Shown in pieces: positions 10,419 through 35,210 of a stretch of 37,483 nt of DNA. The notes under the pieces are model-generated. The model saw only the letters and a program-made list of their open reading frames with translations. It was not told the origin of the DNA and searched no databases. The stretch's first letter is position 1. Every line of letters starts with the position of its first letter. This DNA comes from Verrucomicrobiota bacterium. Lineage in GTDB: Bacteria; Verrucomicrobiota; Verrucomicrobiia; Chthoniobacterales; JAFAMB01. The stretch is from assembly GCA_019236675.1 (NCBI GenBank), contig JAFAIO010000315.1, positions 1 to 37,483 on the forward strand. The letters are read 5' to 3'. Made by a program: the position numbers and the translations under genes.

Positions 10419-10700
10419 GGTAGGGCGAGGCTCCTGAAAGACCTGAAGGTTAGACCCGAAGCGACACGTTTGTCGGCGCTATTTCACTAACAAGTCCGAA
10501 CCGCGTGCCGAGCCGCGGCGCTGCGTGTGCCATCACGATATGATTCTACGACTCAAAGCCTCTGTTGCTTCACCGCTCGATTGATGCCATCTCCAACCCC
10601 TAGCTCGGCGCGCGAATTGGCGTCGCTTGCGGAAGAGCGCCGAAACCTCTTGTATCTCCGCTTGACTGTTCAGGTCTTTCGGGAACCTCGCCCTACCTAC
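10419..10700. repeat. Foldback element, GGGCGAGGCTCC family
   Basis: Left ggtagggcgaggctcctgaaagacctgaaggt; right ttcaggtctttcgggaacctcgccctacctac (reverse complement with few mismatches); interior has gccgagccgcgg. Confidence 0.85.
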
Positions 10701-17736: not shown

Positions 17737-17826
17737 ATAACTTGTTAAAAAATTCCCTCTTTTGGAGGAAAACGTGGTAGCAAGTGGCTTCCGATCGAGT
17801 TGAGCTGAGTGAAGATCTCCGAAATC

Positions 17827-19239
17827 ATGTCAACGCTGGAGAAGTTGAAAGCTTCACCACGTAAATCGCTCGGGCAAAACTTTTTACACGATAATAATCT
17901 CGCCCGTTGGATTGTTGAATGCCTCGAACTGCAGGAGGGCGAACACGTCTTGGAAATCGGCCCTGGTCTGGGTGCTCTGACCGAGTGGTTGCCCCTCGAT
18001 CGGGTGTCGGCAACTTTGCTCGAAAAGGACCGTTTGTTCGCTTCGTTTCTGCAGGAGCGGTTCAGTGAACCCTCCGTGGAGGTCAAGCTGGGCGACGCGC
18101 TTCAATACGATAAACGGGCTCTTTTCTGTAAAGGCGAGGTTAAGTTGGTCGGCAACTTGCCTTACTACGTATCGACAGCTCTGCTGTTCCATTTCTCCGC
18201 TGAGCCATGCCCAATCTCTCGCATGGTATTGACCGTCCAGAAGGAAGTCGGTGACCGTGTCACAGCTTCTCCCAGATCCGGCGAGTACGGTTCGCTTTCC
18301 GTTTTGCTGCAACGCCGGTGGCACATCAAACGGTTGCGGGTCCTCCCCCCGAGCGTATTTCTCCCACGGCCAGAGGTCGATTCCCTGGTAATCGAGCTTA
18401 GAAAAAAGCGACCAGAGGATGTGCCGGAGATCGGTGAGCAGCGGTTCGAGAAAGTCGTGAAGGCGGGATTCTCGGAAAGACGGAAGAAGCTGACGAATAC
18501 GCTCTCAAAATTGGTGCCCTCGCGAGCGGTAGAAGAAGCCCTGGCGGCCGGCGGGCTTAGCGGACTCTCGCGGGCGGAAGAATTATCGCCCGAGGCCTGG
18601 GTCAATCTAGCAATGCGCCTAGGGGATTTTTGCTCGGTGGCGAACCGCGATCTTCGGCCCGAGGGCTTAGGCCAACCTCGAGCTGAGGCCGTCGTGCCGC
18701 CGCCTCGAGCGGCAGCCGTGGATCCGAGAGAGAGTCTCCAGGTCGTGGATGAGCAAGATCGCCCAATCCGAGGTGTCGACCGGGCAACCGTCCACTCTCA
18801 GAAGCTCTTGCATCGCGCAGTCCATATTCTCGTGCTGAACCGCGCCGGCGAAGTGTTTCTACAACGGCGTTCTTACCGTAAAGATACTTTCCCCAGGAAA
18901 TGGGATTCTAGCGCAGCCGGGCATGTCGACGAGGGAGAATCCTACGACGCATGCGCTGGCCGGGAAGTGCGCGAAGAGCTCGGCTTGATCGCTGAACCCG
19001 TAGAGATCGCCCGGGTTACAGCCTCGGAAAAGACAGGTCAGGAATTCATAAGCGTTTACCTGGCCCAAGCCGAAGAAATTGTCGACCTCAACGAACGGGA
19101 GATAGAAACCGGCGGTTTCTTTCCGTTAGGGATCGTTGACGAATGGATCGAAAGCCGTCCTGGGGATTTTGCGTCTGGTTTCTTAGAATGCTATCGCAAG
19201 GTGCAAGCGAGGCTAGGAGCGGCGAAAAGTGACAGGTGA
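17827..19239 (+). CDS. rsmA: 16S rRNA dimethyltransferase RsmA (KsgA) fused to C-terminal NUDIX hydrolase
   Basis: KSLGQNFLHDNNLA, VLEIGPGLGALTEWL, VGNLPYYVS, FLPRPEVDS; then complete Nudix box GHVDEGESYDACAGREVREELGL in the same ORF. Confidence 0.93.
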   Translation: MSTLEKLKASPRKSLGQNFLHDNNLARWIVECLELQEGEHVLEIGPGLGALTEWLPLDRVSATLLEKDRLFASFLQERFSEPSVEVKLGDALQYDKRALFCKGEVKLVGNLPYYVSTALLFHFSAEPCPISRMVLTVQKEVGDRVTASPRSGEYGSLSVLLQRRWHIKRLRVLPPSVFLPRPEVDSLVIELRKKRPEDVPEIGEQRFEKVVKAGFSERRKKLTNTLSKLVPSRAVEEALAAGGLSGLSRAEELSPEAWVNLAMRLGDFCSVANRDLRPEGLGQPRAEAVVPPPRAAAVDPRESLQVVDEQDRPIRGVDRATVHSQKLLHRAVHILVLNRAGEVFLQRRSYRKDTFPRKWDSSAAGHVDEGESYDACAGREVREELGLIAEPVEIARVTASEKTGQEFISVYLAQAEEIVDLNEREIETGGFFPLGIVDEWIESRPGDFASGFLECYRKVQARLGAAKSDR

Positions 19240-20032
19240 GACGGCTGTTCCCGGCGGTTCCTTCAACCCTGACTCCTTGCCCCGTATCCGCGAGATCCTG
19301 AATCGCGATAGGGAATGGAGTCTGTACGCTTTGGGTGATCTGGCGCTGGCGGAGGTTATGCATTGTGAGTGGCGCTTCAGTGCGGTTAATCCATCCGCCC
19401 TGACATTGTTTTATCGAGCCTTTGATCCTCCCGTTTTCTTCGCCATTGGCGCCGCTATGGCCTTAGAACGGCTTCTCGATCAGGCTCCGCTGCCTCCAAG
19501 GCTTTATCTGCATATTAGACCTGAGATTTTAGACTTAGTGTGTGCACGCTATCACCGAGTAACGACGAAGATGATGCAGAGGATGATCCTCCGGAGTGCC
19601 GCCTTGGCGGAATTCGCCGGCACTGAAATCATTTCAGCGAACGAATTGAATGAATTAGTCGAGCTCTACAATTGCCGCGACGGGAAGGAAAAAGAAGGAA
19701 CCTTCTTTTTGCCCGCTCAGGTGGAAGAAGGGATCTACTTTGGAGCCCGTTGCAACGGCCGGTTGGTGGCAGCAGCGGGAACGCATTTGATCAACCGGCG
19801 TGAGGGCGTTGCTGCCATTGGGAATGTTTTTTGTCTTCCCGCCTATCGCGGCAAAGGTCTGGGAGGCCGTGTGACCAGCGCGGTCGTTAACGCCCTGGTT
19901 AGAGAAGGCATCCAGACCATCGGCCTGAACGTTAGTCCCGAAAGCCCCGCAACGAGGCTTTATCACCGCCTCGGCTTCCGAGAAGCGTGTCGGTATGTAG
20001 AAGGAACGGCCGCAGGAAGAGCGAGGAGCTAG
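19229..20032 (+). CDS. GNAT-family N-acetyltransferase
   Basis: GNVFCLPAYRGKGLGGRVTSAVVNALVREG...LNVSPESPATRLYHRLGFRE. Stop TAG lies in the AGGAGCTAG terminus of the adjacent repeat. Confidence 0.88.
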   Translation: MTGETAVPGGSFNPDSLPRIREILNRDREWSLYALGDLALAEVMHCEWRFSAVNPSALTLFYRAFDPPVFFAIGAAMALERLLDQAPLPPRLYLHIRPEILDLVCARYHRVTTKMMQRMILRSAALAEFAGTEIISANELNELVELYNCRDGKEKEGTFFLPAQVEEGIYFGARCNGRLVAAAGTHLINRREGVAAIGNVFCLPAYRGKGLGGRVTSAVVNALVREGIQTIGLNVSPESPATRLYHRLGFREACRYVEGTAAGRARS

Positions 20033-20498
20033 AATCTAGGAGCTAGGACGGGGTGGGCGTGCAAGGTGAGGGTGGCTCTTGTGGAGCGCTGCCTCGCTTG
20101 CGAGGCCGATGCGGTCGGAGACTTGGTGGGGCGAGGGCCTGCCGCGCCGTAGGCTTGGCGAAGGCGGGCTCCCGAAAGACCTAACGGTTTTACCGGAGGT
20201 GATGTGTTCGAAGGGTTTGCTTCGGGTGGCTACACCAAGACGCTCGCCGAGCCGCGGACATATCGCGTGTTCTCACTTTATGTGGTGCCACATCCTAGAC
20301 CCGCGGCTCGGCGAGTTTACAGGCCTAACGTGGCGCTTGGTATCCAGGTCGTTTCTTCGCCCTGGCTTTGCGTATCGGCCGTGCGGGAGCCTCGCCCCAC
20401 CAGGTGTCCGACCTCATCGGCCTCGCTTGCGAGGCAGCGCTCCACAAGAGCCAGCCTGACCTTGCACACCCCCGCCCCTCCTAGCTCCTAACTCCTAG
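20024..20498. repeat. Large nested foldback element
   Basis: About 110-bp imperfect inverted arms (20024-20137 / 20388-20498) sharing agctagga...gtgcaaggt...ctcttgtggagcgctgcctcgcttgcgaggccgat...gtggggcgagg; inner ctcgccgagccgcgg / ccgcggctcggcgag. Confidence 0.92.
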
Positions 20499-21025
20499 TA
20501 GAGAATAAACTCGATCCAGCGTCCGATTTCATCGTGTCCCTGCTCACCTTCCCTCCAGCCCAAGTGCTGATAAAACTCGCGCGCATTTTTGTTAGCCGAT
20601 TGGCATTTTAGTTTAGCTGGTCTGGAAATAGTTCTGAGCGCCGAATCGAGCAGAGCTCGGCCAATGCCAACCCGGTGGAACTCCGGTAATACGTAAAGGT
20701 GATGAATGAAATTTTCTGGCATCCAGATTCCCACGAAGCCGATGACCCCATTCATCGAGTGATCCGCAACCAATAGCGATTCCCCCAGAGTGTCCGGACC
20801 GAAATCACTCGGTTTGAATCTTTTGGGATTTACCCACGAAAACGTCGAAGCGCGGACTTTGGTATAGATTTCCTGGCATCGGGCTGAGTCCCGGCGAGGT
20901 TCAAAGACACGAATCCGCAGCCCGGTATCTAATGTTCCTGTATTGAAGGAGTCCATCTGATAAGGCGATGCCGACCGAATCCGGCATTTTCCTGGATTTT
21001 TGCGATGAAAACCGAGTTTGTGCAA
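20495..21025 (-). CDS. GNAT-family N-acetyltransferase
   Basis: HHLYVLPEFHRVGIGRALLDSALR...NKNAREFYQHLGWREGE. Start may be the internal MDSFNTG. Confidence 0.85.
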   Translation of the reverse strand: MHKLGFHRKNPGKCRIRSASPYQMDSFNTGTLDTGLRIRVFEPRRDSARCQEIYTKVRASTFSWVNPKRFKPSDFGPDTLGESLLVADHSMNGVIGFVGIWMPENFIHHLYVLPEFHRVGIGRALLDSALRTISRPAKLKCQSANKNAREFYQHLGWREGEQGHDEIGRWIEFILY

Positions 21026-25905: not shown

Positions 25906-26246
25906 TGGTGGGGCGAGGGCGGGCGCGCGTAGGCTTTGCGAAGCCAGGCTCCCGAAAGGCTTGTCTCTTATCCCGAAGGGATTAAAGGACTAAGCCCGGG
26001 GTTTTAACCCCGGGGACACGCGATAAAATGCGTCCGCCCTCACAAGGGGCGGTAGAGATTTCATTTCGGACCCGGTTTTGACACCTGATCGCATCACATT
26101 GCGCTCTGCCGCCCCTTCAGGGCGGATCGCTTTTTTTCCCTACCCGGGGTTAAACCGGTTAAAACCCCGGGCTTAGTCCTTTAATCCCTTCGGGATAAGA
26201 CCGCCCTTCCAAGCTCCAAGCTCCTAGATTCCAGCTCCTGACTCCT
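25906..26246. repeat. Compound nested inverted-repeat element
   Basis: Perfect 44-bp arms 25966-26009 / 26157-26200 (tcttatcccgaagggattaaaggactaagcccggggttttaacc); inner arms tccgccctcacaaggggcggtagag / ctctgccgccccttcagggcgga; ends with agctcca-agctcct-agattcc-agctcct-gactcct. Confidence 0.95.
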
Positions 26247-28165: not shown

Positions 28166-28349
28166 CCTGTGGAGCGCGCCTCGCTTGCGAGGCCGACCTT
28201 GAGCGGGTGACAACATAGAGCCTGGGCTACGTCGGGCAGGCTGTCCTCGTCGTCGTCCTCGTCCTCGAGAGGGAACTTCGTGTGGAGCTCACGCTAGACG
28301 GAATATCGCGTCGGGAGGGATCGCGTCCCCGCGATCCGCCGGGTCCGGG
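28166..28349. repeat. Cluster of three repeat modules
   Basis: cctgtggagcgcgcctcgcttgcgaggccga (28166-28196, also in the arms of 20024-20498); GAGGACGA array rc (about 28243-28268); perfect hairpin ggatcgcg-tccc-cgcgatcc (28318-28337). Confidence 0.75.
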
Positions 28350-30171: not shown

Positions 30172-30430
30172 AGGAGCTAGGAGCTAGAATCTAGGAGCTA
30201 GGAGGGACAGTGTGGTGTGGCGTCTCAGATCGTGAGCGTTCCCGAATCCTGCGCGCCGCAATCGGATGGGACCTATGGGACTCATACGACCAACGGGAAA
30301 TGAAAACATAAGTCCCATGAGTCCCATAGGTCCCATCGATTAGCAGCGCCTACCGCACCCTCATACCGGGCAGTGTGGAGATACCTTGCGGCTTTCCCTT
30401 CTAGCTCCTAGATCCCAGCTCCTAGCTCCT
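30172..30430. repeat. Nested inverted element: AGGAGCT outer arms, GTCCCATNN inner arms
   Basis: Outer 30172-30206 / 30397-30430; inner atcggatgggacctatgggactcat (30261) / atgagtcccataggtcccatcgat (30317). Confidence 0.93.
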
Positions 30431-34049: not shown

Positions 34050-34571
34050 TTGGAAACCAACCGACACTATTCAATCTGGGCGATCCTGAAGCTCCTTATT
34101 TTTTGGATCGCGATTTTGATCCCGCCCATCATCGAGCGAACTGTCCTTGGTTCGAGGACCTACTATTTCCTCTATATCGGACTCGCATCGGTTTTTGTGA
34201 TGTACGGGATAACAGTGCGTACGGTTTTCAACTACCTGCGCCACACCAGACGAGAGCCAATTTTCGTTTGGATCGGGTACCTTCTCTGGTCTGTTTTTCT
34301 GTGCGGCGTTTTAGCCGTCTTCCCCTTCGAATACGATCTGTTGCCGCGTATCTCAGACCCGTCCGCGGCCCAAAGCCGCCCGTTGATCGATTACCTCTAT
34401 TTTGAGGTAATCACGTTCACCACCGTCGGCTACGGCGATATAGTTCCTGCCACGGTGCCAGCAAAGATTCTGGCCATGTGTACTGCTTTGTTTGGCGCCA
34501 CCCATGGGGTTACATTCGTAGCCATCGCTCTCCAGGCTTTGACCCACACGCCATCAAAAGGCGAGGAGTGA
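34050..34571 (+). CDS. Ion channel family protein (K+ selectivity filter)
   Basis: FEVITFTTVGYGDIVPAT pore motif with flanking TM helices; TTG start inferred. Confidence 0.85.
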   Translation: METNRHYSIWAILKLLIFWIAILIPPIIERTVLGSRTYYFLYIGLASVFVMYGITVRTVFNYLRHTRREPIFVWIGYLLWSVFLCGVLAVFPFEYDLLPRISDPSAAQSRPLIDYLYFEVITFTTVGYGDIVPATVPAKILAMCTALFGATHGVTFVAIALQALTHTPSKGEE

Positions 34572-34602
34572 TTCGGGTCCCGTTGGGTTCCGCCCTCAAG
34601 AT

Positions 34603-34775
34603 CACAATACGGAAAGATCACAAAGGTCACAAAGACAGAAGAACTGACCGTCCTACAGATTTAGAGGAAGACGATTATACCTACGCACTTCCGGCTCTGT
34701 ACAACCCTGACGACCTGGTCCTGAAGATACGGCAAGGTTATCTTTGTGATCTTTGTGATCTTTCCGTATTGTGCG
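34603..34775. repeat. Inverted repeat with 9-bp GATCACAAA words
   Basis: cacaatacggaaagatcacaaaggtcacaaaga / tctttgtgatctttgtgatctttccgtattgtg, one apparent mismatch. Confidence 0.9.
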
Positions 34776-34805
34776 CATAGAAGCGGGCAAAAGTATAATC
34801 GATCC

Positions 34806-35210
34806 ATGGCCAACGAAGCTGTGAACCAAGTCATCGCCGATTACTATCGCGACTTTAGCACGCTGAATGTCCGGACGATTCTACCGTACTTTAACGAGCC
34901 TTCGTTGCTTGTCGGGCCGCAAGGAGTGATCCCGATACCTAATCACGCAGCGCTCGTGTTTGTTTTTGGGCCGGTGATGGAAGGTCTGCGAGGGAAAGGC
35001 TATGGCCGGAGCGAATTCGAACTGGATTACGCCAAGTCGCTCAGTTCATCCGCCGCATTAATTGCTGGGGTAGCGGTGCGACACGACACTGCTGGCCAGC
35101 AACTGGAGCGCGTGGGTATAACCTACGTGCTCCACAAAACGGAGAGCGGCTGGAAGTTCGTCACCGTTATCCTTCACGATCCAAACCCGCCAGGCGGAGG
35201 CAAGCAGTGA
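34806..35210 (+). CDS. SnoaL/NTF2-like family protein
   Basis: MANEAVNQVIADYYRDFSTLNVRTILPYFNEPSLLVGPQG...TYVLHKTESGWKFVTVILHD. Confidence 0.75.
   Translation: MANEAVNQVIADYYRDFSTLNVRTILPYFNEPSLLVGPQGVIPIPNHAALVFVFGPVMEGLRGKGYGRSEFELDYAKSLSSSAALIAGVAVRHDTAGQQLERVGITYVLHKTESGWKFVTVILHDPNPPGGGKQ

Follow-up and report, generated by a model that had tools for sequence, protein, structure and literature searches.

The window, the whole stretch of 37,483 nucleotides analysed here, is contig C214 of a 5.87 Mb source genome (G000) that comprises 565 contigs and is 84.67% complete. The source genome and its sister genomes (G002 and G003) are metagenome-assembled and incomplete, and the repeat counts given below come from genome searches together with about 1.3 Mb of contigs and are based on fuzzy pattern matches. 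A 475-base composite fills the junction between two converging GNAT acetyltransferase genes (Table 1), and the stop codons of both genes lie inside the outer CTAG-containing heptamers (TAG at 20030-20032 on the plus strand and 20495-20497 on the minus strand). At 17809-19239 a KsgA rRNA adenine dimethylase (PF00398) and a NUDIX domain (PF00293) are fused in one ORF, an arrangement that is kept in G002 (L070).

Table 1. Genes and layers of the composite at the GNAT/GNAT junction (positions in the window).
Feature	Position	Strand	Basis or remark
GNAT acetyltransferase, upstream, converging on the element	19229..20032	+	Pfam PF00583, 4.7e-13
Shell A left, AGGAGCT/CTAGGAG heptamers, holds the upstream GNAT stop	20024..20048	+	inverted repeat with 20478-20498
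Spacer arm left (GTGCAAGGT...GGCTCTT)	20049..20080	+	arm of the 87-nt inverted repeat; homologous in the C18 copy
Module B left, REP unit GTGGAGCGCTGCCTCGCTTGCGAGGCC and tail GATGCGGTCGGAGACT	20081..20123	+	REP family that brackets the C312 RAYT
Element C, 279 bp, ends TGGTGGGGCGAGG / CCTCGCCCCACCA	20124..20402	+	170 exact feet in the genome
Hairpin F, 32 bp, left C arm only	20137..20168	+	missing from the right arm
Inner pair E, left arm CTCGCCGAGCCGCGG	20243..20257	+	100% complementary to 20301-20315; also in other C copies
Inner pair E, right arm	20301..20315	-	complement of the left arm
Module B right, REP unit in opposite orientation	20403..20445	-	inverted repeat and module scan
Spacer arm right	20446..20477	-	arm of both long inverted repeats
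Shell A right, holds the minus-strand GNAT stop 20495-20497	20478..20498	-	inverted repeat with left A
GNAT acetyltransferase, downstream, converging from the other side	20495..21025	-	Pfam PF13508, 7.5e-13

The initial annotation had described 20024-20498 as a nested foldback, and both the complementarity of the arms and their folding confirmed this. The arms extend overall over 20029-20136 and 20390-20498. Within them an ungapped 87-nt pair (20050-20136/20390-20476) is 89% complementary and a second pair of 29 nt (20029-20057/20470-20498) is 79% complementary, while the 15-nt inner pair is a perfect complement. When folded as single-stranded DNA the interval reached -177.8 kcal/mol, compared to -95.2 +/- 4.9 kcal/mol for shuffled sequences (z = -16.9), and none of 100 shuffles folded as well. 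The absence of a coding signal was likewise borne out, as the longest internal ORF (20079-20459, 126 aa) had no Pfam match. At the gathering threshold no Rfam match was found across the whole window. A coding origin and a structured RNA, either of which had been named as an alternative account of the whole interval, were both dropped.

From the outside in, the layers follow the order A, a 32-bp spacer, B, C and the inner pair E. It had been claimed that the two arms carry their layers in the same order; this held for the reverse-complement shells but not in full, since hairpin F is present on the left only and the loop of the mini-hairpin in the right B copy is flipped, with GCCTCGCTTGCGAGGC reading identically in both arms. 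Near the inner pair are GCCTAAC-like words, which may be reminiscent of integron attC sites.

The modules are dispersed repeat families. With the whole element as a BLAST query we obtained 113 matches in its own genome, so a lack of copies elsewhere, which had been raised as a possible objection, can be set aside. The A word was found at 127 genome places at one mismatch or fewer (none for the reversed pattern), the exact C foot at 170 (none for its control), with the other C copies in unrelated contexts, and B at 152 distinct occurrences in the fetched DNA. We found the families to be common to G002 and G003 and their matches to be nearly absent outside the genus. Named records containing B were Verrucomicrobiota metagenome-assembled genomes, with one exception labelled Planctomycetota. 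These searches upheld the proposal that the shells were assembled from modules that also occur alone, as each shell is a repeat family with solo copies. Within the window the solo motifs lay within a few bases of where they had been placed (GTGGAGCGC at 28169, GGGCGAGG at 10423 and 13178), and AGGAGCT occurs 19 times in the window where 4.3 are expected. A 637-kb sample contained 46 foldbacks whose arms pair over 30 bases or more, and its Markov-shuffled control contained none, indicating that the genome is rich in foldbacks. Direct repeats flanking C copies were not evident, nor was a clean empty site for C.

Further foldbacks were observed in the window. Another composite at 25906-26239 has a C-type left end with F, nested shells (ATCCCGAAGGGAT, CCCGGGGTTTTAACCCCGGG, CCGCCCTCACAAGGGGCGG) and A on the right; shells matching its inner ones adjoin a truncated RAYT gene at L079. 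At 30172-30430 a 259-bp foldback has A heptamers outermost and the inner pair GATGGGACCTATGGGACTCAT / ATGAGTCCCATAGGTCCCATC. The foldback at 2683-2915 is of the D type, and that at 34366-34973 contains GATCACAAAGGCCACAAAG-like words near 34.4-35.0 kb. Outside the window, an F-like 30-bp hairpin is located at about 575-606 of L076 (G000:C75) in an acyl-CoA synthetase/acetyltransferase-like ORF with no evident frame break. In-frame palindromic inserts are known from Rickettsia, to which this hairpin may be likened.

The family of module B is linked to a transposase gene. On contig C312 of the source genome the gene of a REP-associated tyrosine transposase (RAYT, a Y1 transposase) is bracketed by inverted B copies, and an 88%-identical ortholog adjoins a B copy in the same gene neighbourhood of G003, where the other side is cut off. 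The C312 protein scored 86.6 bits against NCBI NF047646 (REP_Tyr_transpos; cut-off 80), matched the solved TnpArep structure 4er8 (2e-9) and retains the HUH and tyrosine residues. Sister RAYTs are about 50% identical to it and are bracketed by other REP families: the D family (TGGAGGGGAGCCGC) brackets RAYTs in G002 and G003, and the CGGAGGGGCGTTGCATTC family does so in the source genome and G002. Bracketing by inverted repeats was found at 21 of 32 RAYT loci, compared to 3/500 random and 1/71 shifted intervals. Distinct adjacent B pairs mostly face each other with their feet outward (47/55). By crude gene calls, 11 of the 14 B groups that could be placed in the sampled contigs are intergenic and 3 are in predicted genes. 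GT[AG]G feet are canonical for REPs (PMC6006769). A GTGG is present and conserved at the B foot; its gap to the GCCTCGC/GCGAGGC stem is 6 nt, above the 0-2 nt of PMC6006769. Thus B is a high-copy, mostly extragenic palindrome that forms inverted doublets and has a dedicated RAYT, and by these sequence features we classify it as a REP. It is most likely mobilised in trans by the RAYT.

Among the RAYT loci recovered in the source genome none was bracketed by C or A, and for this reason we do not class C as a member of the REPs. RAYTs with C-like ends on both sides occurred only in other families of the order (L214, L217), and among the loci read no transposase gene was bracketed by A. At L077:1295-1974 (G000:C552) a RAYT gene occupies the middle of three palindromes arranged concentrically, with CCGCTAA heptamers as the outermost layer, so an onion of this kind can also surround a transposase gene.

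Composites also occur as whole copies. Contig C18 carries a second full composite that shares A, the spacer, B, C and E with the window element; homology ends at A, and the flanks are unrelated. In G003 a B-D-B composite is dispersed in at least 12 places as a segment of about 350 bp consisting of the left B, D and the start of the right B. Further partial B-D matches are present in G003, and at 8 sister loci we read both copies of B. Since composites also multiply as units, some copies did not arise by a nesting event of their own.

The layers follow fixed rules of order and orientation. A lay outside B and B outside C or D in 18/18 nested pairs, and the C feet faced each other in all 37 distinct adjacent pairs. 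For 15 of the 36 copies of C the flanking sequences are complementary to each other right up to its ends, compared to 3% of mismatched pairs (p about 7e-14, a value to be read with the non-independence of copies of one composite in mind). The palindromes around C are B, A and several other heptamer words. After B, the next TGG[AT]G foot begins 15-18 nt past the hairpin in 33/34 cases. Most solo B pairs have loops of 60-220 nt, whereas in the composites C or D abuts B with no remnant of a loop.

Relatives hold different palindromes at the same junctions. The G002 sequence aligns with the GNAT/GNAT junction up to 20013 and resumes at 20504, with a different palindrome of about 107 bp between. 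The C18 junction is likewise occupied by other nested palindromes in G002 and G003, so that at both composite loci the relatives carry unrelated palindromes. The alignment of orthologous loci thus recovered relatives but no clean empty site at this junction, and since other palindromes are present there the order of insertion is taken from other loci. The most direct case is one site in two genomes. A sister genome (L348) has nothing there but a short palindrome of heptamers whose centre is intact, and in the source genome (L394, contig C334) the same site has expanded heptamers, an A shell and C at that centre; C lacks its right end here and the pair is not polarised by an outgroup. For hairpin F clean filled and empty orthologous pairs were found (L160/L133, and L081/L082 within B). 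Shells also disappear, since the difference at L045/L249 reflects loss of the B shell in G002 rather than its gain in the source genome. A gain of B around D at L045 was considered and rejected, because B is also present in the relative from G003 and its tail CGACACGA persists in G002. The stepwise nesting of palindromic modules proposed in the initial annotation was therefore right in kind, given the central placement of C and the L394/L348 pair, though it did not foresee that composites are also copied whole.

These arrangements suggest that new palindromes landed precisely in the middle of older ones, after which the package spread as a unit. We hold with moderate confidence that the interval is a composite non-autonomous mobile element, in which palindromes became nested at older centres and were later copied whole. 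C, the second palindromic element, would sit exactly in the middle of the REP doublet B, and the heptamer palindrome A would enclose both. Most likely an HUH/Y1 single-strand transposase inserts each unit at the centre or loop of an existing palindrome, the RAYT being the putative mover of B, with C and A presumably having movers too. Because a palindrome centre would be exposed as single-stranded DNA and would already be neutral and non-coding, nested arms could build up like an onion, and a completed composite could be copied whole as long as its outer ends were still recognised. Several points go against this explanation: the L394/L348 pair is unpolarised and its C copy incomplete, shells can be lost as at L045/L249, the source genome yielded no RAYT between copies of C or A, and copies of one composite are not independent in the statistics. 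In addition, the loop-free B/C and B/D joints are not predicted by random insertion into loops of 60-220 nt. We propose only tentatively, and with less confidence than we place in the composite itself, that palindrome centres are a preferred landing site for several unrelated single-strand-transposed families and that composites become new mobile units. If true, this would be a route from small REPs to large foldback elements, repeated in one soil Verrucomicrobiota genus.

The main rival concerns the direction of insertion. If B units inserted at each end of a C or D already in place, next to its TGG[AT]G feet, the shells would have accreted outward. The fixed distance from B to the next foot is what such insertion would give, the number of units in tandem arrays of B differs by one from species to species (L055/L307, L046/L175), and L120 has B on one side only where G003 has both. 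However, the L394/L348 pair shows an outer palindrome without inner elements, C is flush-centred in many palindromes other than B, and the difference at L045/L249 that was first taken as a B gain is a loss. We consider accretion unlikely, although the 60-220-nt loops of solo B pairs fit neither it nor inward nesting neatly. It is less likely still that the mobile origin is incidental and that selection maintains the hairpin as a bidirectional transcription terminator or insulator for the convergent gene pair. Relatives do hold some palindrome at the same junctions, and 15 of 42 foldbacks lie at convergent junctions, a class that accounts for 78 of the 466 junctions and about 20% of the intergenic sequence by a crude gene calling that overlooked the window's own minus-strand GNAT gene. 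Yet the junction sequences are wholly different between sister species, the other 27 foldbacks are at tandem or divergent junctions, and the modules recur as dispersed families. A terminator role is possible as a by-product. A strict limitation of foldbacks to convergent junctions was unsupported, the enrichment there being only mild.

We regard as very improbable that replication template switching copied one flank inverted to the other side with no transposition at all. Matching of the arms across the joints between shells would fit such an event, as would the flipped mini-hairpin loop of the right B, which hairpin processing could produce. But these modules are found at hundreds of places that are unrelated to one another and lie on both sides of transposase genes, the surroundings of the C18 copy are unrelated, and clean filled and empty sites have already been seen for hairpin F. 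An assembly artefact is hardly credible. The metagenome-assembled source genome is fragmented and incomplete, and contigs C312 and C375 resemble strain variants of one locus; nevertheless genomes that were assembled separately contain the same modules, and the element lies in the interior of a 37-kb contig, where its flanks on either side have orthologs. We thus continue to favour a composite mobile element nested at palindrome centres.

Several known systems share features with this composite. BIMEs of enteric bacteria are mosaic REP clusters in which related REP types of one system alternate in orientation; the mosaic clustering is alike, but the families combined here are unrelated. MITEs and nested transposons are short non-autonomous inverted-repeat elements inserted in one another, whereas here we saw no target-site duplication, and the enzyme linked to the element is of the HUH/Y1 rather than the DDE type. 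REPINs, REP doublets that form hairpins and are associated with RAYTs in Pseudomonas fluorescens SBW25, are likewise dispersed inverted palindromic doublets with a RAYT beside its own doublet family, in which the whole doublet replicates as a unit and tandem clusters form (PMC3116915). Higher-order REPIN clusters are mostly tandem (PMC3116915), in contrast to the concentric families in fixed order, the 279-bp element and the heptamer shells described here. REP dimers lie inside palindromes in Anabaena variabilis, Thermomicrobium roseum and Halothiobacillus neapolitanus (PMC3733652), and the present case resembles these in having a REP dimer within a longer palindrome. Those cases involve one REP family and one palindrome type per species (PMC3733652), while here the outer palindromes are several mobile families in at least three layers. 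TIRtrons, with their TIRYT genes, are tyrosine transposases flanked by long terminal inverted repeats (PMC3733652), and Y1 genes bracketed by long composite inverted repeats are present at L076, L077 and L080; unlike in TIRtrons, B is REP-like with a GTGG foot, and A and C have no such gene in the source genome. The literature searched, which lay outside subscription journals, yielded no description of several REP families stacked concentrically. REPs inside palindromes are thus already known and the concentric version with many families is new.

The composite bears on how REP palindromes pick their targets and on how larger foldback elements originate. Its layers, their order, orientation and junctions can be read directly, and sister species hold other states of the same junctions. 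Since a candidate transposase for one layer has been identified, the insertion rule is testable with one protein and short single-stranded DNA oligonucleotides.

A further gene family was found between inverted repeats. GxxExxY / PDDEXK_3 nuclease-like genes (PF13366, TIGR04256) were bracketed by inverted oligomer words, for example CACAAAGGCACGAAG or GCGAATGGACGCGAATG, at 27 of 31 loci, compared to 3/500 random and 1/71 shifted intervals. The loci are L143 and L146-L149 in the source genome and L177-L205 in related genomes of the order. The GxxExxY family looks like a gene of a mobile or invertible element. The gene lies in opposite orientations at L114:2792-3292 (G000:C112) and L204:1454-1956 (G002:C118), and the breakpoints of this segment are in the flanking inverted words, as if the segment had flipped.
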